From: a virus | Virus record (IMG/VR): IMGVR_UViG_3300044641_006950 | Span: 1 to 64,000 of that record | Reading direction: 5' to 3' (one strand) | DNA: 64,000 bases | Part shown: one piece after another, positions 2,634-63,732 of the stretch | Position numbering within the stretch: the stretch's first letter is position 1 | Layout of the letters: each line of letters opens with the position of its first letter | Translations under genes and position numbers: made by a program | Notes under the pieces: generated by a model | What the model was told of the DNA's origin: nothing | Seen by the model: only the letters and a program-made list of their open reading frames with translations | Databases searched by the model: none

Positions 2634-3299
2634 CTATGCTATTCTGCGTCTATTACTTTTTGATGTATCTATTCCTTTTCCTTTTTGATGCTGAACTACA
2701 CCAGAAGCAGTAGATACATAACCACTTATACAACATTTCCATCTTTGAGAATTAGTTATTTTAGAATTTTCAATTCTCTGTTCTTTTGATAAACCACAAA
2801 CACCGATATTTAATTCTTTCTTTTTATAACCAGTTATTCTGCCGTGTTCAATCATTTCTTCCAAACTTCTTCCACAAATTCCAGTTTTATTTTCTCTATT
2901 GCTGTTTCCACCTTTTTTACCATCTTTACTCATTTGGTCTTTACTTCTTGAATGAACCCCTAATTTAAGTTCATATGCTTTTTTTCCTGCTTTACTTTTT
3001 TGCTCTAAAGAAAAAACTCCCAAGCAACTTTCATTTAAGCACCATTTATCGGTATTATATACTGGGTTAATTAATCTCCCTTCAACTTCTTGTGCTTTGA
3101 TATATCCTTCATCACTAAACTCAAAATATTCCAATATCTGTTTCTTTGGAGTATAAAGTCCCCAACACCATTTGTTTGCTACGGGAGAACCCCAATACTC
3201 TTCATCAAAATACCTTTCTTTTTTACTACCATAATAGTAATAAGGAACTTCTTCAAAGGTAACCTTATATGTGTAAATTCTAGGACTATTTTTAGTCAT
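2634..3299 (-). CDS. GIY-YIG-like free-standing homing endonuclease with NUMOD-like repeats
   Basis: 221-residue protein. The N-terminal third (residues about 7-100) matches the general plan of GIY-YIG nucleases: paired Tyr-rich strands (IYTYKVTFEE, YYYYGSKK), EEYWGSP, a helix with Glu (AQEVEGRLI) and NPVYNTDKWCLN. Residues about 100-180 hold repeated segments with Gly-Lys-Lys and S-x-EQ/EE motifs, like NUMOD3 DNA-binding repeats. The C-terminus (WKCCISGYVSTASG then KGKGIDTSK) is shared with the protein at 9017-9631. It would cut phage DNA at a specific site to spread its own gene. The gene has a late promoter between two inverted-repeat arms just upstream. It may instead be a related nuclease with another role, but the family call is fairly secure. 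Confidence 0.75.
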   Translation of the reverse strand: MTKNSPRIYTYKVTFEEVPYYYYGSKKERYFDEEYWGSPVANKWCWGLYTPKKQILEYFEFSDEGYIKAQEVEGRLINPVYNTDKWCLNESCLGVFSLEQKSKAGKKAYELKLGVHSRSKDQMSKDGKKGGNSNRENKTGICGRSLEEMIEHGRITGYKKKELNIGVCGLSKEQRIENSKITNSQRWKCCISGYVSTASGVVQHQKGKGIDTSKSNRRRIA

Positions 3300-3324
3300 T
3301 TCTATTCTATTTGGACGGCATTAT

Positions 3325-3332
3325 TATTTATA
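3325..3332 (-). promoter_or_regulatory. T4-type late promoter TATAAATA
   Basis: Exact TATAAATA on the minus strand, 26 bases before the ATG of the endonuclease gene at 3299 and inside the inverted repeat. This is the T4 gp55-dependent late consensus. Confidence 0.75.
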
Positions 3333-3339
3333 ATAGAAA

Positions 3340-3357
3340 AGGTGCCCGAAAGCACCT
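3340..3357 (-). terminator. Terminator after 3410-3637
   Basis: Minus-strand stem AGGTGC/GCACCT with loop TTTCGG, followed by TTTCTATT. It would stop transcripts of the upstream operon before the homing endonuclease gene. Confidence 0.65.
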
Positions 3358-3409
3358 AATCTTTTGTCTGTAGAGATTGCCGTCCAAACAGACACTTCTA
3401 TTTATTCTA

Positions 3410-7722: not shown

Positions 7723-8199
7723 TTACGAATAAGTGTATAATTTCCATTCTTGGATATTTGAACTGTGCAGAGTAAACTGCATTTTGTTTAATGGAGGTCT
7801 GGGTTTTTTTCTCAATTTCATTCCAGTTTGCTCCAATAATGTATTACCTTTTTTTGTATTACATGAACTACATGCAACTACAAGATTTTCCCAAGTATCT
7901 TCACCACCTCGACATTTTGGAATGATATGATCTATGGTTAGATTTCTGGTAGATCCACAATACTGACAAGAATTACTATCACGCTTATAGATCATCGTTT
8001 TTGATGGTCTATGTGACATAATTTTTGAAAGTGGAACTTTCACATAATCTAATAATCTGATTACTTGAGTTGAAAGAATTTGTGCTTTTTCTTTGAGAAG
8101 TAAAACTATTGCTCTCTTCCAACTTGTAATGTTAAGTGGTTCATAACTGGAATTTAAAACTAAAACAGATTTTCCAGGTTCAATTCTTAAGTAATCCAT
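7723..8199 (-). CDS. HNH endonuclease
   Basis: 158-residue protein. The nuclease core is near residues 77-125: a zinc-ribbon pair CQYCG and CSSCN, the catalytic LTIDHIIPKCRGGEDTWEN motif (D-H, then Asn) and a C-terminal KKGN. The N-terminal part (VLVLNSSYEPLNITSWKRAI) is the typical companion of a family of HNH proteins found in cyanobacteria and their phages. It should nick or cut DNA; the target is unknown. It could act as a homing endonuclease, in genome packaging or against host DNA. It sits alone between small genes with 4-6-base gaps. Confidence 0.85.
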   Translation of the reverse strand: MDYLRIEPGKSVLVLNSSYEPLNITSWKRAIVLLLKEKAQILSTQVIRLLDYVKVPLSKIMSHRPSKTMIYKRDSNSCQYCGSTRNLTIDHIIPKCRGGEDTWENLVVACSSCNTKKGNTLLEQTGMKLRKKPRPPLNKMQFTLHSSNIQEWKLYTYS

Positions 8200-8997: not shown

Positions 8998-9016
8998 TTT
9001 TTGTTTTACCCCCGTT

Positions 9017-9631
9017 TTAGTTATTTATTTTTACTTTTTTAGAAGTATCAATACCCCTCACTTTTTGATACCTTGTAAGAGGACCTATGGTAGATACCAT
9101 ACCAGTTTCCAAACACATCCACTTTTGAGAGTTTAACTTTTTAGAAGATATTATACCACCTTTTTTTCCATTCTCAACTAATTGCTCTTTTGTTAGAGCA
9201 AATATACCAGTTTTATTTTTCTTTGCCTGTTTAACAGATTTTTTAGCAGTTTCAGTTCTTTTTTCTGAGGACATCCCAAATATTCCGATTCCCATTTCTT
9301 TACATTTTGCCGACCCCCTTTTACCTCCAACTTTTCCTGCCTCACTTCTTTTCTGTAAGGATATATACCCAGCACAATTTTCATTTAGACACCACTTATC
9401 TTTATTATAAAACTCTTTTATTATTCTTGCTTCTACTCTTTGCGCTTCTTCCCAATCAACAAAATATTCTAATATCTGTTTCTTTGGAGTATAAGTTTCC
9501 CAGCACCATCTGTTGGTTACAGGAGACCCATAATACTCTTCGTTAAAATTTTTTTCTTTATGGACCCCATAATAATAATACGGCACTTCCTCAAAGGATA
9601 TACGATAAGTGTATATGCGTAGAGTATTCAT
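9017..9631 (-). CDS. GIY-YIG-like free-standing homing endonuclease, second copy
   Basis: 204-residue paralogue of the protein at 2634-3299. Shared blocks: RIYTYRISFEEVPYYYYG, EEYYGSPVTNRWCWETYTP, KKQILEYF, a Glu-bearing helix (AQRVEARIIKEFYN) and KWCLNENCAG. NUMOD-like segments follow (GKVGGKRG, SSEKRTETAKKS, TKEQLVENGKKGG). The C-terminus (SQKWMCLETGMVSTIG then RGIDTSKK) is again common to both. Divergence is high over the middle, so the copies are not recent duplicates. It has the same upstream layout: inverted repeat, terminator and exact TATAAATA. Confidence 0.75.
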   Translation of the reverse strand: MNTLRIYTYRISFEEVPYYYYGVHKEKNFNEEYYGSPVTNRWCWETYTPKKQILEYFVDWEEAQRVEARIIKEFYNKDKWCLNENCAGYISLQKRSEAGKVGGKRGSAKCKEMGIGIFGMSSEKRTETAKKSVKQAKKNKTGIFALTKEQLVENGKKGGIISSKKLNSQKWMCLETGMVSTIGPLTRYQKVRGIDTSKKVKINN

Positions 9632-9655
9632 ACTGCTTTTTATGTGTGGTAATAC

Positions 9656-9663
9656 TATTTATA
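9656..9663 (-). promoter_or_regulatory. T4-type late promoter TATAAATA
   Basis: Exact TATAAATA on the minus strand, 25 bases before the ATG at 9631, placed between the arms of the inverted repeat. Same position as the box before the first homing endonuclease. Confidence 0.75.
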
Positions 9664-9676
9664 CGAATTACGCAGT

Positions 9677-9702
9677 AAAAAAGGGGGGGGATCCCCCCTT
9701 TT
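9677..9702 (-). terminator. Strong terminator after 9732-9971
   Basis: Minus strand AAAAGGGG... then CCCCTTTTTT: a G-rich/C-rich stem with a U-run. It separates the small-gene operon from the homing endonuclease gene. Confidence 0.75.
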
Positions 9703-9731
9703 GCTTTTAGTTACCACACATAAAAGCATTA

Positions 9732-9971
9732 TTATTTATTCTTCTTTTCCAATTCTCCCATCAGTTCTTTCGCCATCTTCATAGATTTTCTGTAAATCAA
9801 CCATTTAACTATGATATTATCTGGTGAGTGAATTATCCACCACTTTGTTTTTTCATATTGTACTTGAGCAAGTTGAGTCAGCATATAAAATGCCCTCGCT
9901 ATGGATTGATCGGTAACAATTAAGTAAGCAATACAAAAAAAGATAACAAAGTATATGTAAGTGGAACTCAT
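9732..9971 (-). CDS. Small membrane protein, 79 aa
   Basis: An N-terminal hydrophobic span (MSSTYIYFVIFFCIAYLIVT, residues about 5-19) is followed by a basic, amphipathic helical part ending KELMGELEKKNK. Probably a single-pass protein with its tail in the cytoplasm. ATGA overlap with the upstream gene. Function unknown. Confidence 0.65.
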   Translation of the reverse strand: MSSTYIYFVIFFCIAYLIVTDQSIARAFYMLTQLAQVQYEKTKWWIIHSPDNIIVKWLIYRKSMKMAKELMGELEKKNK

Positions 9972-14321: not shown

Positions 14322-17300
14322 TTAGTGAAAGTTTACCCAAGCACTACCAGTCCATCCTTGGAATGTATTTGAACTAGTGTTAAAAATTACTGCTCCAGTT
14401 GCTGTATCTCCAATACCATTTCTTGCAGTATCATTTATATTTGGTAGAATTACAACTGGATAAAAATTAGCAGTATCATCGGCATATCCAAAATCTAATA
14501 CACCTCTCGGAAGATCTGTATTAAATCCTACTGAAGATTGTTTGTATATATTTACATAAGTATTATATAAATCTACACCATGATCAAAGATTTGAATATC
14601 ACCTTCTAATCCAGATGGAGTAATAAATTCAGGATCTCCGCCAGGATAGAATTTTGTGGTTGTTCCAATTCCAATATATGAACTAGAATCAACAATCATT
14701 TTACCTGATATTAATAATCCAACATCACTGTAAGTATTTTCTGTTATACCTGTTGTTCCTATACCAATTGATTGGAATAAAGCTTTTGAATTTTTAGCAT
14801 CTATATCTATTAAATTTAATAATAATCCAGTTGTAGTTGTTCCAATTCCAATGATATTTGAATGAATTGTATTAAAAGTAGAAACACCACTTGTTACATT
14901 AATGTTTTTAGTAATTATATTTGGTAAACTATCATTTGTTAAAGTAATTCCCGAAGAAAATGTTGCCGTTCCATTAACAATAAGATTTCCAGATATTGTA
15001 ACGTTATTACCAAAATAGGAATTGTCAGTAATTGAAGAAGTTCCAACAACGTCTAATGTAAACTGTGGTTCATCATTATTAACGCCAAATTTTCCATCCC
15101 AAGTAAGTGTAGCTAAATTATTGCCATAATACTCATTTTCCCAATAAAAATTGCCACTACTAATTCCGGAAAAAGCAGAATTATTTAATATAAAACTAAT
15201 ATTTCCTCTAGGATCATTACTTTTTAATGTAAAATCACCCGAAGTACTAAATCCTAATCTACCTTCTACTCCACCATTAGTAATAAATTGTATGGCAGAT
15301 TCTCCAGTACTTGAAGTTGAATATAAATCAAGTTGAGATGTAACAGTATCATAAATTAATAAATTACTATTTGGTGAAAGAACATAAGGATTTGTTGTTC
15401 CTATTCCAATTACAGAATCTGTTGCATTAATATTGATTATGTTTGATCCACCTTGAGTTTCAACAACAAATGAACCATTTACTGTTAATTCTTCAATCAC
15501 TTGTAAATTGTTATTGACAATAACTTGATCTGTGTTAGAATCTAATACTAGATTACCACCACGAGTACTAATTGTAGTCGTTCCAGCAACACCAACAGTT
15601 ATGCCATTTAAGTATGACTGTGAGAATGCTTTTGTTAAACTCCCCAAGTTAGAAGTTATATCAACATTTGGAACTAATGAAGAATTAACTGTCGTTACTC
15701 CTGATATTATTGCTCCATTTGAAACTTTTAGTTGTCCTACAAGATCAACAACTCCACTTGAAGGTGATAATTGAATATCTCCACTACTTGATGCTATTTT
15801 GTTATCAGATCCAACTCCTATATTAATGTTATCAACATAAACTTCACTAAACTTTTTAGTAGAAGATCCAAGCGGAGAAGTTTGATTATCAAATGGTAAA
15901 AATCCACTAAATGCACTTATAATTCCACTAGAATAAATGTTTCCACTTGAAACATTTAATGCACCTCCTGTTATAGAAGTAAATCCAGTTACTGTTAAAT
16001 TATCATTAACCTTAGTATTTCCAGAATTAGAGTCTAAAATTAATTCTTTTGATCTAGTTGTAATTGTATTACTAGATGCTGTTCCAATTCTTATATCACC
16101 AATATATGCATTTGTGAATGACTTTGTATTAGATCCAATATAAGAATCAAAATCTACATCTGGAACAATTCCAGTATTTAAAGTTACCTCTCCAGTTAAT
16201 GTAGAAATTCCACTTACATAAAAATTATCGCTTACGTTTACAAATCCTTCTTGAGAACTTAATATAAGATTACCATTAGTTGTATCAATTTCAGTAACAC
16301 CAGCATATCCAATTCTAATACTTGAAATATAAGCATCGGAAAATGGTAGTGCTGAAGACCCAAGATAAGCACCATTTTTAACATCTGGAACAATTCCAGT
16401 TTCAACAGTTACTGATCCTTGAAGTGTGCTTATGCCAGTGACAATTAATCTATCATCAATTCTTACTGTTCCAGAATTTGAATCTAAAACTAATTCTCCA
16501 CTTACAGTGTCAATTTCCGTATTCCCAGAAACTGCGATTTGAACATTACTAACATTGATTTTAGAAGCAGTTGATATTCCAATATTTGAATAGGTCGCCG
16601 TTGAAAATCCTACAGTTGCAATTCCAATGTTGGCATACTCGGATGTTAAAGAACTTGTAATTCCCGACTGAATATACAAAGTACTGATTGTAGCAACTCC
16701 TATGTTTGCGTGAGTTGCTGTAAAAATTCCAACAGTTCCAACACCACTGTTTGAAAATGTGGAAGTTAATGAGGTAACAATTCCAGAAACTACAGTTAAA
16801 TTTGTTACTATTCCAGTAGTGGTTACTGATTTTTTGGAAGTTATAGTTTCACCAATAGAAACCAAAGTAGAACTAAAGTTAACTATTGTGCCAATTCCGG
16901 AGTAAAGATTTGAAATTGTAGAAAATCCTACAGTTGCAACTCCCAAATAAGCATTGGTTGCTGTTAAAAATCCAATTGTTGAAACACCACTTAAAAAGTT
17001 AGTCGCTGATACAAATCCAACTAATATATTAGATGGTAATCTAGAATTACTTATGGTTCCAGAAGAAATATTACTTGCATTTAAGTTTGTTAAGGAAGAT
17101 CCATCACCATCAAAATAAGATGATGTGATAATTCCAGAAGCTCTAATATTTCCAATTGAATTAATTCCAACACCAGACTGTCCTAATTCTGGTCTCCCTC
17201 CAATTTGAAGTGAATTAATCCTTGAAGGATTTGTTGTAGCAATACCAACATTTCCTGCAGCGTATATGCTAGTAAATCCAAGTCCAACGTCAACGTCAAC

Positions 17301-17622: not shown

Positions 17623-20600
17623 TTATTTATCTGTTAATTTTTGTTCAATATCTTGAACCTTAATGTTCAGTTCTTTGATTGCCTCAATTAACAGGGGAAC
17701 AAGTTTTTCATATTTAACCGCAAGGAAACCATTATCTCTTTCAGTTACAACTTCTGGTAAAACTTTCTCAATTTCTTGTGCAATAACACCTGCTTCACGA
17801 ATATTTTGATCTTTGCCTATTGCTAAATCATTCCAATTATAAGTTACACCAGAAATCTCAGAAACTTTTGTTAGTGCATTTTCAATTAATGAAATATTTG
17901 TTTTTAATCTTTCATCTGAGCTGTAGTATGCAACAATATCACTTGTTGATCTAATTTCTCCACCAACTGTTAAGTTTGTTCCATCAAAAGTTAAATTACC
18001 AGAAGTTGTTGTTGAGTCAGTTCCGCTATTATATAATATTCTACCACTGCCGCCTGAAACATTTGTAGCTATAGTGGCAGACGCAGCATTGCCAGTAAAT
18101 GTAGTTGCCGTAACTGTTTGACCAGCGGCATCAATCCCACCAGCAGATACAGTTAAACCACCAGTAGTTACTGTCAAACCATTGCTTGCTGTTATTCTAT
18201 CTGCTGCTGCTAAAGTTCCACCGACAAAAAGTTTTTTAGCAATTGAACCGCCACCAGAAGTATAGAATGAAGCGTTAGTATCTGTAGAGCTACTAGAATC
18301 TGTAGTATTTGTTATACCAAGTTTTCCATTAAGTGTGAGACCACCATTAAGAGTTAAAGTTCCTTCAATTATTGTATTTCCAGTATCAGAAGCAATACTA
18401 AATTTACTAGATGATGAACTATCTTTTACACTAAATGTTTTAGCAGATCCTTGAATAATAACATTATCATTAAAAGTAGCAACATTATCAACATTTAGAT
18501 TTCCTTTAATATTGATATTATTACTAAAGGCATCAATGTTTAAATCACCACTGGAAGTTGTAATTGTATTGTCATCTCCAACCGCTGTTCCCTCTGCTAT
18601 TCGAATGTTTCCAATGAATGCAGAAGAGAATGGTCGTGCGTTTGATCCAAGATAAGCTGCGTCTCCTGCAGTATCTGGAATAATTCCAGTTTCTACTGTA
18701 ACTTCACCTACAAAATTAGAAGTACTCTGGAAGTTAGCATGACCTTCAACGTCAATTGGAGAATTAATATCAATAATACCAGTTCCATTTGCGTCAAGAA
18801 TAATATTTCCATTTGAATCTGTTGAAGTAATGCTATTTGTATCTAATCTTAAATTGTCTGCATTTAGTTGTCCAACAACAGTTAAAGTTGAATTATCACC
18901 TGAGGTTCCAAAGTTTACGTCATTAACAGTTTCTACAACACCAGTTCCATTTGCACTGAACGTAATATTTCCATTTGTGTTTGTAGAGCTTAATGTATTT
19001 CCATCAAGTTTTAGATTATCAACAAATGCTTCTGAGAATGATAGTGGTAATGATCCAAGAGGAGCACCAGAATCTGTTAATGGGAAGAATCCAGTGGAAG
19101 ACGTAGTTACACCAGTTACATTTAAATTAGATTTTGCGGTTAATTGACTATCAACAACAACAGAACTTCTGAATGTTGCTATTCCTACAGTTTCAAGGGT
19201 GTTGGTTATCTTAACATTATCAAATTCATGAGGAGCACCATTAATTGAAGATAATACAAGAGATCCTGCTGGTGATAAAGTTATAGAAGCAGTTTTTCCA
19301 ACAGCAATAGTGTTTGAAGATCCATCAATAGTAATTGAAGTTCTTCCTACAGTTAAAATACCTGCAATAATTGCATTATTTTCTGCATAAAAACTTGTAT
19401 TTTCTATTCTGACAGAAGTTCCAGCACCTATACTATTCAATACTAAATCACCAGTCCAACCAGTAATTCTCCTATCTTCAATTTCTGTTCCACCAGGAGT
19501 TCCCTCTGTTGAAATTCCAATTCCACCAAACCAACCAGAAGCCCATGGTTTAGTAGAAGAACCAACATAAGCATCTTCTATAGAATCTGGAACAAGACCT
19601 GTGTTAAATTGAACTTGACCATTAAATGTTGCTGTTCCAGAAATACTTACATTACCACCAACATTTAAGTTTCTTAAAATTCCAACTCCACCTTTTGAGA
19701 CAATTGAACCATTATTTACAGCAGTAGAATCTGTATTATTATTCTGTCTTAAAATATTAGATAGAATAACTTCACCATTAATTTTAGTTTCACCATTCAA
19801 GATTGCATTGTTGTTGAATGTAGTTGGTCCGTCAAATTGTGAAAGAATTTGTTTTGATTTGCCACCTTCTACAAGAATTCTTTCCTTAACAATAACTTCG
19901 TCAAATACAACACTAAGTCTTGAAGGATCTTGTCCAGTGACAGTTGGAATTGGAATATCAAAAGTTGTTTGTTGACCAGAAGCTGAAGAGTATTTGGTAT
20001 TTCCAATGAAGAAGTCTCCATCACTGTTCATTCCAGTATAAACAACACTTCCACAAGATCTTTCCTGAGATTGTGATAAGAAATCTTCTCTTTCTGTCAG
20101 GGTCTTAACTTGAATTTGTGGTAAACCAGTTGAATAGTTTCCAGGACCATAACCAAGATATTCAAAAGTATGACCAGATGCTCTTAAAATTGAAGGTCTG
20201 CGTAACTCAATTGCAAGTGGTTTAATCTTTTTAATTAAAGAATTTGCTAAGTGAGTTTCTTTTTGAGTTCCCAAATAACCACGAAGAACTGTAATTTCAT
20301 TGTTTCCAGAACCAGTCAGGGTACTTTTTGAAACCCTCATAATTTCATTGTCAACTTGAATGAAACTACCAATTGGGAATCTAGTTACAGTTGAAATACC
20401 AGAATTGACTAATCTAATTGGGAAAGTTGCAATTCCTGATGTAGTATCTGTTGCTATGTCTGTTATAAGAATAGCAGACTCATTATCGTAGAAGGAAATT
20501 CCTCTTGCTGCTAAGTTTTCACTTCCAGCATCAGAAATTAAATTATTTGAAGATAATCCATGCTTTAGAATTCTGGTAGAATTTGTGTTAACACTTCCAG

Positions 20601-41205: not shown

Positions 41206-41694
41206 TTACTTACCAGGAAATAAATTTTCAGGTGGAACAAGAGGTTTATCGGAAGGTTTTTGACCAGAAGCTAAATGATATGGTTGCGCTACTATTGAAC
41301 CCCAATATGATAATGTTGTTTTAAACTCTGTACTTTTTTGAGATTGTTGATCAGAAAGGGTGCATTCATATCCAGGATTAGATCTTCCAATTACACCTAT
41401 AATTAAAGGTCTTTCACAATCGTCATCTAGAAAAATACCAACTACCCATTCACCACCTATAATAGCGGTTGATCCTCTATTTAGTGTACCTTGGGAAGAG
41501 GGTTTTAAAATAATTGCCCAAGGGAGATCTTCATCTGGAAGAATATTACCCTCCATTGGATGATATCCAACTATTCTAACTTGAACTCTGTCTCCCCATT
41601 TTATAGATTCCGTTTTATTATCAGTCTGTCCCAATGGAACCTGACCAATCCACCATCTTGGGGGGTTTTTACCAAAAAATCCTGGTTTAAACAT
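41206..41694 (-). CDS. 5: Baseplate hub/spike protein, gp5 OB-fold type, 162 aa
   Basis: Residues about 10-110 follow the OB-fold of T4 gp5 and VgrG: WWIGQVPLG, WGDRVQVRIVGYHPMEG, LPWAIILKPSSQG, IIGGEWVVGIFLDDDCERP and LIIGVIGRSNPG. T4 gp5 continues with lysozyme and beta-helix domains; this protein ends soon after the OB-fold. It should sit at the tip of the tail tube with gp27. Its gene is next to the gp27-like gene, as expected. Confidence 0.8.
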   Translation of the reverse strand: MFKPGFFGKNPPRWWIGQVPLGQTDNKTESIKWGDRVQVRIVGYHPMEGNILPDEDLPWAIILKPSSQGTLNRGSTAIIGGEWVVGIFLDDDCERPLIIGVIGRSNPGYECTLSDQQSQKSTEFKTTLSYWGSIVAQPYHLASGQKPSDKPLVPPENLFPGK

Positions 41695-41699
41695 TATTT

Positions 41700-43007
41700 T
41701 TATATTTTCCCTCCACTTGTATATATTCCATATGTATCTCGAACTAAAGTAAGTGAAGTAAAAGATCTATTTGGATCAAAATTATGACACAAATGAAGAA
41801 TTAAATATTTTCCACTTTGAGATTCATCTATTGATCCAGAATTTTTACTGCTCGGTGTTATCTTTTCAAATTCACAGTTAATTACATTTCCTGCTTTTAA
41901 ATTAGGATTGCATGGTACAATGACATTTAAAACTTGACTTATTGTAATATTATATTTCATAGCAGAAACTGCAAGATACTGACGAGGATCATTATTAAGT
42001 TTTGTACTTAATTCCTTTTCCATATTACCAGTATCTAAAATAAAATGATTAGTTCTACTAAACACTTTTTTATCAGAAGTTGGATATAAATTTGAAGAAT
42101 ATTCTTGATTTCCACCAAGAACCTTGATTCCAGATCCACTTATATTTGTAAATATCTCTTCATATTTTCCTGTAGAAAGATCTAGAAAAATATTTTTTGA
42201 TCTTAATGTTCCAGATCTCAGCAAATCAAGAAGATTTTGATCTTTTACAAATTGTGGTTGAGTTAAAATTCTATAATCATTATCGTCATTATCCAAACTT
42301 GCATTTCCAACATTATAATATTGATAAGTTTCAACTGCAGGAGAAGAAACTAAACTATCAATTGATCTAAAATTGAATCCTTCTTGAGTTTCCCAAAAAA
42401 AGTATCCAGCACTTCCATCTATTGGTATTGATTTTGGACACAATGATATTATAACGTCAAATGCTCTTCTTGAATTTCCACTAAATGCATTTGAATTTTT
42501 TGTCGTTTCTATTTGAGATATTTTAGTAGAAGGAATTTTTAAATCATTAGTAATTATTTGTTTTACGGAATCTGATATGCTATTGTAATATTTGGAGTAA
42601 ATATTAGTATTTTCATTATCAATCGCATATTTTGAAACTAAATTCAATGTAACAACTTGTCTGGTAGATTCTTGTGCTGGAGATGGTTTAGAATTTATTA
42701 TCAATGGATAAGAAGTAAAATCTAAATTGCCAAGTTTGCTTTCTATTTTAAAAGAAACTTCTTCATCTCCACTTCCTCTTACTGGTAATGAAGATACTAT
42801 TGTTCCATATCTTTCTTGAGTATCATATTTTTTTTCTGCCTGCAATGCATTTCCAGAATCTACAAAAACTATTTTTGCAGTTATATGTGGAGAAAGTAAA
42901 CTCTCATAGTAACTAAAACTAACCGTCCTACCTTCTAAGGAAACTTCTTTACCATTTTTATTAATTTTAATTTCAGAATATCTGGAAGATTTTGAAGCAT
43001 TTAACAT
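41700..43007 (-). CDS. 27: Baseplate hub protein gp27-like, 435 aa
   Basis: Begins MLNASKSSRYSEIKINKNGK and contains SFSYYESLLSPHITAKIVFV, then NTNIYSKYYNSISDSVKQII and FFWETQEGFNFRSIDSLVSS, the typical layout of gp27-type hub proteins with two beta-barrel domains. T4 gp27 trimers fit between the tail tube and the gp5 spike. The adjacent gp5-like and tape-measure-like genes agree. It has no visible signal peptide, and length is close to T4 gp27 (391). Confidence 0.75.
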   Translation of the reverse strand: MLNASKSSRYSEIKINKNGKEVSLEGRTVSFSYYESLLSPHITAKIVFVDSGNALQAEKKYDTQERYGTIVSSLPVRGSGDEEVSFKIESKLGNLDFTSYPLIINSKPSPAQESTRQVVTLNLVSKYAIDNENTNIYSKYYNSISDSVKQIITNDLKIPSTKISQIETTKNSNAFSGNSRRAFDVIISLCPKSIPIDGSAGYFFWETQEGFNFRSIDSLVSSPAVETYQYYNVGNASLDNDDNDYRILTQPQFVKDQNLLDLLRSGTLRSKNIFLDLSTGKYEEIFTNISGSGIKVLGGNQEYSSNLYPTSDKKVFSRTNHFILDTGNMEKELSTKLNNDPRQYLAVSAMKYNITISQVLNVIVPCNPNLKAGNVINCEFEKITPSSKNSGSIDESQSGKYLILHLCHNFDPNRSFTSLTLVRDTYGIYTSGGKI

Positions 43008-61615: not shown

Positions 61616-63732
61616 ACCTCAACACCCATCTTAGCAAGATTATTGATCAGAATATCCTTATCTTTTTCGGAAACTGTATATTCTTTTAAAATATTTAGAA
61701 GTAAAGATCTAGATTCTTCAACTTTACCCCACCACCATCCAGAAACACCCTTTGCAAATAAAATTCCCTGTTTACCAGGATATTCAACATCGGTTTTTAA
61801 TGGTGGAAGATTAAAATCACAATGAATTAATGCAAGTTCGGCAGTTGAATAACAATCTTGCCACCACTCACGCTTTTGAGCAAATCTTGCCAGTAAGAAA
61901 TATGCTTCTGGGCGACTTGGTAAAAACATTTGTGCTTGCCATAATAATGATCTTGCACTACCGTCTCTTGTACCTTGTTTATCATAACAATAAGATGCAC
62001 GAATTAATGCCTCATATGCAAGAGTAGGATCAGAGTTTGTTGCTCTTTCAGCGCACCTTAGAAAATATGAGAGAGCTGGGGCAGTGTGTCCTTGATTTTC
62101 ATACCAAACTCCAAGATTAAAATTATGATCTGGATTTTCTGTATCTAAAGAATATGCTTCCAAAAGATTTTCAAGTTCTGTTTTTTCAGCAAGAGAACTA
62201 ATTTTGTTTTTAGATTTCCAATATTCTAATACAGATTTACTTGCATGATAATGATTTCTTTTTTGTCCGACATTAACGTCATTATCTTGTTCTTTTGTAA
62301 ATGTAGATTCTAATTCAACTTCTTCTACAAAAAGAGGAACAGTATAACATTTACCCAAAGTAGTAAATAATATATTTTCAATTAAAGGCATCACATTAGA
62401 ATTAGGTATCTCTAAAAAGTAAACATCACCTTTAATATAATTGTCTATTATTTTTTTAGCATAATCCCTTGTTATGATATAGGCGGTAGCACTCCAATCG
62501 TCCCAATATCTTTCTCTTACTTTAAAGTTCCCAAAGTCTTCCCGAATAGTAACCAACTGAACAACATCCCAATCATTAGGGAGATTTTTTATAAATTCTT
62601 CCCAAGTAAAGTCCCAGTATTGAACGGTCTCTAAACTAAGATCATCCTCACAAAAAAATGCATATTCGTCTTCAGTTTCATCATACCATTTTTTAATTGC
62701 TTTCAAATGAGAAACACAACAACCTGCAGTGCCAGAATTTAATTGGAAAAGATATTTTCCGACAACAGTATCATTAGATTCTGAAAATCTTTTTGAAATT
62801 ACTGGAGTAATCTTTATTCCATATTCTAAAAATTGATTTTTAATATTTTTTTGCCTTTCTGCACTTTCCTCCAAAGTCATAAAATATGCTTTGGGGAATT
62901 TATTTAACTTATTATTTAAATTTTTTGAAGCAATATAAAATTGATCCGTAACTTTTTCTAAATTCCAAACAATATCAGATTTAAAATAATAACTTGCAAT
63001 TTCGGACAAAGATTTCTGTCGATTTATTTCAATGTGCTGTTGAGCAAGAACATACTCAATTTGCCATTCAAGTTCATCACCTTTATAGTAAGAAGAAAGC
63101 ATATTGCGAACATTCATTTCTAAGTTCTTATCCGTATGATAAGCTTCAAAATTTTCTAGTCTTTTTTTATCAGGATGAGGAATATGAATAATATTATGAT
63201 TATATTCTACTTTATGTTTTTTTAATCCAAGAAGTTCTAAACGATGAGATATTTCGTCATCCTCATAAGCATAATATTGAGTATGAATTTCATTAAAACC
63301 ACCTACTTTTAAATAATTTTCTCTACTAATGTAAAGAAGACCTCTTAAATATTTAAAATATGGACTTGAATTAATTTCTACTTGCTCATAATCATTCTGT
63401 CCACACAAAAAAGATTCATTATCAATCTTGTAATGTTCAAAAAAATTAAAGTAAGGATTTAAAATATAATCAGTGTCTACCTTAAGTATATAATCCCCAG
63501 TTGCAACATTGGCAGCAAGGTTTAATGGTTGTGGTTGATTAAAATAAGTTTGATTAGGAACATTAATGACTTTAATTCTTTCGTCCCAATCAGTTAATTC
63601 CCTAAGAGATTCGTCAGAACTCCAATCAACAATAATAATCTCTGTTATTTCTTTAAATAACAACCAAGAGGAAAGAGAAATTTTAAGTGGTGCATTTCTA
63701 TTTTTACATGCACAAATTAGTGAAACATTCAT
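61612..63732 (-). CDS. Three-part protein: GT2 domain, GT25-like domain and TPR-like repeats, 706 aa
   Basis: Start at ATG 63732, which makes an ATGA overlap with the upstream gene. The first 270 residues are a GT-A glycosyltransferase (ICACKNRNAPLKISLSSWLL, ILKVDTDYILNPYFNFF, GGFNEIHTQYYAYEDDEISH). Residues about 285-480 resemble LPS/collagen-type GT25 (AYFMTLEESAERQKNIKNQF, GTAGCCVSHLKAIKKWYDET, EDEYAFFCEDDLSLETV). The last 200 residues are TPR-like helices (NFNLGVWYENQGHTAPALSY, LARFAQKREWWQDCYSTAEL). The fusion may move sugar in two steps. Its target is unknown. Confidence 0.7.
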   Translation of the reverse strand: MNVSLICACKNRNAPLKISLSSWLLFKEITEIIIVDWSSDESLRELTDWDERIKVINVPNQTYFNQPQPLNLAANVATGDYILKVDTDYILNPYFNFFEHYKIDNESFLCGQNDYEQVEINSSPYFKYLRGLLYISRENYLKVGGFNEIHTQYYAYEDDEISHRLELLGLKKHKVEYNHNIIHIPHPDKKRLENFEAYHTDKNLEMNVRNMLSSYYKGDELEWQIEYVLAQQHIEINRQKSLSEIASYYFKSDIVWNLEKVTDQFYIASKNLNNKLNKFPKAYFMTLEESAERQKNIKNQFLEYGIKITPVISKRFSESNDTVVGKYLFQLNSGTAGCCVSHLKAIKKWYDETEDEYAFFCEDDLSLETVQYWDFTWEEFIKNLPNDWDVVQLVTIREDFGNFKVRERYWDDWSATAYIITRDYAKKIIDNYIKGDVYFLEIPNSNVMPLIENILFTTLGKCYTVPLFVEEVELESTFTKEQDNDVNVGQKRNHYHASKSVLEYWKSKNKISSLAEKTELENLLEAYSLDTENPDHNFNLGVWYENQGHTAPALSYFLRCAERATNSDPTLAYEALIRASYCYDKQGTRDGSARSLLWQAQMFLPSRPEAYFLLARFAQKREWWQDCYSTAELALIHCDFNLPPLKTDVEYPGKQGILFAKGVSGWWWGKVEESRSLLLNILKEYTVSEKDKDILINNLAKMGVEV

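Follow-up and report, generated by a model that had tools for sequence, protein, structure and literature searches.

A candidate two-promoter antisense RNA cassette preceding homing endonuclease genes of T4-like cyanophages

Two related homing endonuclease genes are carried on the minus strand of the window (the whole 64,000-nucleotide stretch analyzed, part of an 85.7-kb IMG/VR virus record whose near relatives are the T4-like cyanomyoviruses, Kyanoviridae). The first-pass annotation had noticed that both are preceded by inverted arms enclosing a strong terminator and a late promoter, and that the arm sequences differ completely between the two copies. This raised the question of whether such a repeated layout is maintained by selection and what kind of control it may exert over the endonuclease.

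Anatomy of the two cassettes in the window

The product of the second gene (P0001, 204 aa; 9017..9631, minus strand) matched PHROG 314 'homing endonuclease' with residues 6-203 (E = 6.6e-10), and its relative P0002 (221 aa; 2634..3299, minus strand), the product of copy 1, shares 52% identity with it. No Pfam match above the cut-off was obtained for P0001, its AlphaFold model (pLDDT 64) was too poor to class the catalytic fold, and the fold search returned no significant match. Both window copies contain a GIY-YIG motif-like IYTY...YYYYG and a conserved E, with only a weak hhalign alignment to a classic family. No bacterial relatives were detected in the genome contigs searched. A 158-aa protein with the HNH-like CxxC...H pattern is encoded 0.8 kb downstream of copy 2 (7723-8199), without a late box or arms upstream.

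The copy 2 cassette, read on the minus strand, leads in its first half from a late promoter (P1) through a 5' hairpin presenting arm 1 in the loop to an intrinsic terminator, and in its second half from another late promoter (P2) through arm 2, which begins where the P2 mRNA is predicted to start, and the leader to the ATG. The predicted P1 is a late-promoter-like box, AATAAATA (9733..9740), overlapping the stop codon of the upstream 79-aa gene. In T4, late transcription starts 6 nt past the late box. By this rule, the P1 transcript would start at 9727, exactly at the base of the hairpin GCTTTTATGTGTGGTAACTAAAAGC (9727-9703), and the P2 transcript at 9650, the first position of the loop complement. 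The resulting antisense RNA of approximately 51 nt (9677..9727, predicted +1 at 9727) would comprise the hairpin, with arm 1 or the address, GCTTTTATGTGTGGTAA (9727-9711), partly in the loop, and the terminator AAAAGGGGGGATCCCCCCCCTTTTTT (9702-9677), a GGGGGG/CCCCCC hairpin followed by six Ts; its predicted fold has an energy of -25.1 kcal/mol (z = -3.96 versus shuffles). P2 is an exact late box, TATAAATA (9663-9656), 25 nt from the ATG at 9631. Arm 2, TTACCACACATAAAAAGC (9652-9635), is complementary to arm 1 and occupies the 19-nt leader of the late mRNA (9632..9650) from the predicted +1 at 9650, with ACCACACATAAAAAGCAGT immediately 5' of the ATG.

The arms of copy 2 are complementary, as previously noticed, at 17 of 18 positions; one base is bulged, and 15 bp of the duplex are unbroken. 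A perfect 15-bp arm pair appeared in none of 300 dinucleotide shuffles of the 9500-9800 region (the largest had 13 bp) and in 2 of 300 segments of 301 nt drawn at random from the window. The TATAAATA box occurs only three times in the 64 kb, fewer than the 7.5 occurrences that chance would give; two of these stand at the endonuclease genes. A search of the window against Rfam at curated thresholds returned two tRNAs and no other family; at the cassette loci only sub-threshold matches at the chance level were seen.

Copy 1 has the same anatomy, again on the minus strand: a P1 box AATAAATA (3399..3406), a predicted antisense RNA of approximately 60 nt (3332..3393) consisting of a 5' hairpin (3393-3366) and a terminator (fold -24.0 kcal/mol, z = -5.15), a P2 box TATAAATA (3325..3332) located 26 nt from the ATG at 3299, and a leader with arm 2, GCCGTCCAAATAGA (3300..3319), which pairs with the arm 1 of the same copy over 15 nt without interruption. 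Direct reading thus confirmed that in both copies the arms enclose a terminator and an exact late box at nearly the same distance from the ATG, and that the arm sequences are unrelated. The duplex predicted for copy 1 arm 1 reaches -26.4 kcal/mol on its own leader versus -5.1 kcal/mol on the leader of copy 2.

Two features were noted at the borders of the cassettes. The late-box sequence AATAAATAA is present at both ends of the copy 2 cassette (9733-9740 and 9016-9026), at the stop codons of the upstream and the endonuclease genes. Behind the endonuclease stop codon of copy 1 (2560-2637) and in the 3' flanks of many other cassettes, GGACACTTnnnAAACTGGnACA is followed by a GGGCAC...GTGCCC hairpin and TATAAT, a module that looks like a terminator and an early promoter for the next gene.

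Conservation of the layout and selection for pairing of the arms

A search of IMG/VR with a profile built from 15 relatives retrieved 188 relatives; 80 of these were retained and, together with other loci, gave a set of 83 distinct homologous genes with at least 110 nt of upstream sequence. The order arm–terminator–late promoter–arm was found in all 83. P2 was likewise present in 83/83, 18-50 nt 5' of the start codon (exact TATAAATA in 79), and P1, in the form [A/C]TAAATA, preceded P2 by 61-95 nt in 82/83; upstream conservation starts abruptly at the P1 box. In all 82 homologues with P1, the leader has its complement in the RNA that separates the two boxes.

Among 150 distinct cassettes, a terminator-like stem with a T-rich tail was detected in every one by a loose test, and arm 1 lies within a 5' hairpin with a stem of at least 4 bp in 145. 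P2 is exactly TATAAATA in 145/150 cassettes and P1 in 30/150; this more frequent departure from TATAAATA suggests that P1 is the weaker promoter of the two. The leaders are 17-25 nt long overall and 18-25 nt, most often 20 nt, in the homologues, and have no strong Shine–Dalgarno sequence. The duplex spans +1 to +7-15 and leaves 3-16 nt free before the ATG; at most 6 nt remain free in about a third of the cassettes (51/150) and up to 16 nt in others.

The covariation of the arms was counted in two ways. In the set of 66 distinct cassettes, for which the register was picked to maximize pairing, mRNA positions +1 to +7 were paired with arm 1 in 66/66 through many different pair types, and positions +8 and +9 in 64/66, whereas about 30 to 60 of 66 were expected under independence, depending on the position. 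No covariation signal was seen at position -1 (60 observed versus 59.3 expected); the signal runs from +1 to about +11 and fades beyond, so it ends at the predicted +1 of P2 as expected if the partner of arm 1 is the P2 transcript. The mean duplex energy was -21.6 kcal/mol for own pairs versus -8.4 kcal/mol for foreign pairs, and the own RNA was the best partner for 61/66 leaders. The second count used a fixed register and 36 distinct members of one class, selected only by the TCT start: 98.0% of the alignment cells were paired versus 31-48% with partners slid by 1-3 columns. In this class there were 79 double-sided changes versus 21.5 in shuffles, 8 of the 14 pairs changed on both sides, and the covariation score was 0.530 versus 0.200 in shuffles; the shuffle tests are inflated by the kinship of the sequences, whereas the slid control is not. 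A chance origin of the arms was ruled out by the shuffles and the slid controls. The covariation shows that pairing of arm 1 with the mRNA from the predicted +1 is under selection. The comparison of homologues proposed in the first-pass annotation, with the layout in 83/83 and very strong covariation of the arms, hence supports its claim that a layout repeated with unrelated arms is under selection.

Spread across nuclease families and the pool of addresses

A scan for two late boxes plus complementarity matched 281 of 359 box pairs, as opposed to 10 when the antisense stretch was reversed. It yielded 197 distinct cassettes, which precede homing endonucleases of several unrelated kinds. After clustering of the nucleases on their N-terminal domains (repeat motifs otherwise join all families), 79 cassettes were assigned to the family of the window, 65 to the classic GIY-YIG/NUMOD3 family, 28 to T4 MobE-related HNH proteins, and nine to another GIY-YIG family; further cassette-bearing genes encode an HNH protein, a possible PD-(D/E)XK protein, and the small unclassified protein. 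When an arm-blind motif (terminator tail plus late box) was used instead, arms were found at 97 of 99 places and a P1-like box at 98 of 99.

The cyanophage late promoter has been described as NATAAATA (PMC2984593). In the complete genome of cultured S-SRM01, 6 of 97 such boxes are accompanied by a cassette, all six stand before nuclease-like genes, and the six addresses differ, with own duplexes of -16 to -24 kcal/mol and foreign ones of -1.8 to -13.8 kcal/mol. The P2 boxes of these six cassettes lie at 18023, 48505, 51316, 56028, 62479, and 192488 of this phage, which infects Synechococcus KCZYC6. None of 224 TAAATA boxes of T4 has arms of at least 9 bp placed as in the cassette. B23 also carries a cassette and marine MA01 an imperfect one; in marine S-B05 and Sf-CH5, the arms are kept, the P1 box is absent, and the terminator is weak or absent. 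No cassette was found in S-N03, RN05-S, or at the inspected ACG-2014f gene, where the genes lie inside operons; they are a minority, representing distant marine relatives of a neighboring nuclease family. Several GIY-YIG/NUMOD3 genes (S-SRM01 62515-63273, B23 41542-42165, Sf-CH5 156271-156693) carry the label 'translation initiation factor 2', which probably reflects an error in the database.

About 100 versions of arm 2 were distinguished across the cassettes, and 15 of the 100 addresses are common to different nuclease families. Within single loci, none of 72 foreign pairs fell below -15 kcal/mol, compared with 5.9% between loci. Address non-overlap within a genome is not strict, since the large contig G001 carries the same address twice, and strict enforcement was therefore rejected. 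The scarcity of tight foreign pairs within a locus and the sharing of addresses across families lend weak support to a speculative and rather doubtful idea that addresses define immunity or incompatibility groups: a resident RNA would silence an incoming element with the same address, new addresses would spread and diversify, and the cassette would be shuffled among unrelated nucleases. The repeated address of G001 counts against it.

Some observations concern the origin of individual cassettes. S-SRM01 and S-SKS1, which have no cassette at the matching site, show one late-box copy there. The cassette may insert at late promoters, and P1 may be either a part of the cassette or the late promoter of the insertion site. 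Loci L012 and L001 share the same upstream gene end (..EEKNK*) followed by different cassettes, addresses, and endonucleases, which indicates that the site was occupied more than once. The cassette of L219 (also L036, minus strand near 14353) has no P1 box, its arm 1 and arm 2 come from different address classes with a 2-nt bulge, and it looks like a recombinant. An extra TATAAA-like box (TATAAACTTTTATAAATA) stands just before P2 in L154, L184, L188, L190, L207, and L221.

The proposed antisense control, its rivals, and known systems

We propose, as the probable reading, that the arrangement is a self-contained RNA control cassette in which an antisense RNA from P1 binds the late endonuclease mRNA at its 5' end by base pairing and likely represses it. 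P1 would direct synthesis of an RNA of approximately 50-60 nt ending at the intrinsic terminator, with the address displayed in the loop of the 5' hairpin; P2 would produce the endonuclease mRNA, the first 9-14 nt of which are the complement of the address. A separate small RNA is a well-supported prediction, to which four sequence features point: the late box in a constant position ahead of arm 1, the terminator behind it, the local hairpin that presents arm 1 in its loop, and the complementarity that begins with the first base of the P2 transcript. Action in trans is inferred from the P1 box, the terminator, and the start-site register; we also infer that P1 is active, that the RNA is a molecule of its own, and that its effect is repression. 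Because the RNA and its target are encoded on one strand, every copy of the element present in a cell could supply mRNAs on which the RNA acts. Duplex formation at the start of the ~20-nt leader would most likely hinder ribosome loading or lead to mRNA decay, so that endonuclease output would be kept low while the phage genomes multiply (an incoherent feed-forward loop). The terminator would stop read-through from upstream genes, and in any transcript that passes it, the arms would fold together in cis. The layout seen in the first-pass annotation stands; the locus is better described as a two-transcript cassette of antisense RNA and target leader than as one hairpin control. P1, the position of arm 1 in its own hairpin loop, that of arm 2 at the P2 start, and the other gene families were missing from that account.

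The strongest competitor, to which we give perhaps a quarter of our belief, is control in cis alone: transcription entering from early or middle genes upstream would yield RNA with both arms, whose pairing would hide the endonuclease start; the terminator would merely lower the read-through; and the P2 transcripts starting inside the repeat would lack arm 1 and hence be translated. Such cis-hairpin control, in which the position of the late promoter lets late RNA avoid the hairpin, is known for I-TevI, I-TevII, I-TevIII, segB, and Aeh1 mobE of T4-like phages (PMC2988022), and the cassette shares with I-TevI, I-TevII, segB, and mobE the late promoter inside an inverted repeat before the start codon of a homing endonuclease (PMC2988022). 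P2 lies between the arms directly before the endonuclease in 83/83 homologues. The cis reading stays alive since the minimum-energy structure of the read-through RNA contains the long-range arm-to-arm fold in 150/150 cassettes and the variants of S-B05 and Sf-CH5 retain arms and P2 without a P1 box. It leaves unexplained why 82/83 homologues have a late-type box in a constant position ahead of arm 1, why a local hairpin competes with the arm-to-arm fold, and why the covariation ends exactly at the P2 +1; moreover, the duplex keeps its register with the 5' end of the mRNA and not with the start codon, and the P1 box and terminator count against regulation confined to a single transcript. I-TevII itself differs in that its arms overlap the promoter, and in the sequence examined it has neither a terminator nor an upstream late box.

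The antisense RNA may, with a rather small probability, be an activator that shields the mRNA from 5'-end-dependent decay. FasX protects streptokinase mRNA in this way, by pairing with its 5' end. Since the gap of 3-16 nt between the duplex and the ATG means that the ribosome-binding region is not always covered, there is room for such protection, and the pairing from the predicted +1 often stops short of the AG-rich stretch that precedes the ATG. Against this, the nucleotides left free in about a third of the cassettes are so few that the duplex would cover the ribosome-binding region, and it is not obvious what an activator that is always co-expressed would offer beyond a plain 5' hairpin. 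We favor repression through the leader as the first choice and 5'-end protection as the second. We regard as very improbable that the repeat acts as DNA, being a site of endonuclease binding or recombination such as an I-TevI-like operator or mobility ends, even though I-TevI represses its own late promoter via an operator resembling its homing site (PMC2988022) and late-box sequences flank the window cassette. The arm sequence is free to change if both arms change together, the same address precedes different nuclease families, and the register is tied to the transcription start with the terminator included. An RNA-guided nuclease was considered and rejected: the address complement belongs to the mRNA of the element itself, at a constant spacing from the promoter, and the same addresses occur with unrelated nuclease folds.

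Among known antisense designs, the c4 RNA seems the closest. It lies upstream on the strand of its own target, is processed out of a shared transcript, and keeps an antirepressor of temperate phages in check. The predicted cassette RNA has the same layout, being upstream, on the same strand, and complementary through its loop to the start region of the target. In bacteriophages P1 and P7, c4 uses complementary loop stretches and a target near the translation start, and differing specificities result in heteroimmunity (PMC12197685). In contrast to c4, the cassette RNA would have a late-type promoter and a terminator of its own; it accompanies homing endonucleases of lytic cyanophages and has no Rfam match. 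CfrI of the T4-like cyanophage S-PM2 is likewise a non-coding RNA associated with a homing endonuclease, but it is ~225 nt long, runs on the opposite strand across psbA and the endonuclease gene, and has no separate address (PMC2984593); no other antisense RNA associated with a cyanophage endonuclease was found in the literature searched. Type I toxin–antitoxin systems, e.g., zorO-orzO, resemble the cassette in that an adjacent small RNA pairs with the mRNA of a harmful protein and represses it (PMC3919570). They differ in that the cassette protein is a nuclease of ~200 aa (P0001 and P0002 are charged proteins of 204 and 221 aa), not a small hydrophobic toxin, and in that the RNA and mRNA run in the same direction. 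No description of the cassette arrangement was found in the literature searched, with most subscription journals and preprints lying outside the search, and the words promoter and terminator are absent from the text of the S-SRM01 paper.

The question is directly testable since the cultured phage S-SRM01 carries six cassettes. If the proposed antisense control is true, it would represent a dedicated RNA regulator of homing endonucleases, one cassette placed before several unrelated nuclease families. It would also provide about a hundred naturally matched RNA pairs, a ready-made and mostly non-cross-reacting antisense set, and a concrete test of how lytic phages restrain selfish nucleases when hundreds of genomes share the cell.
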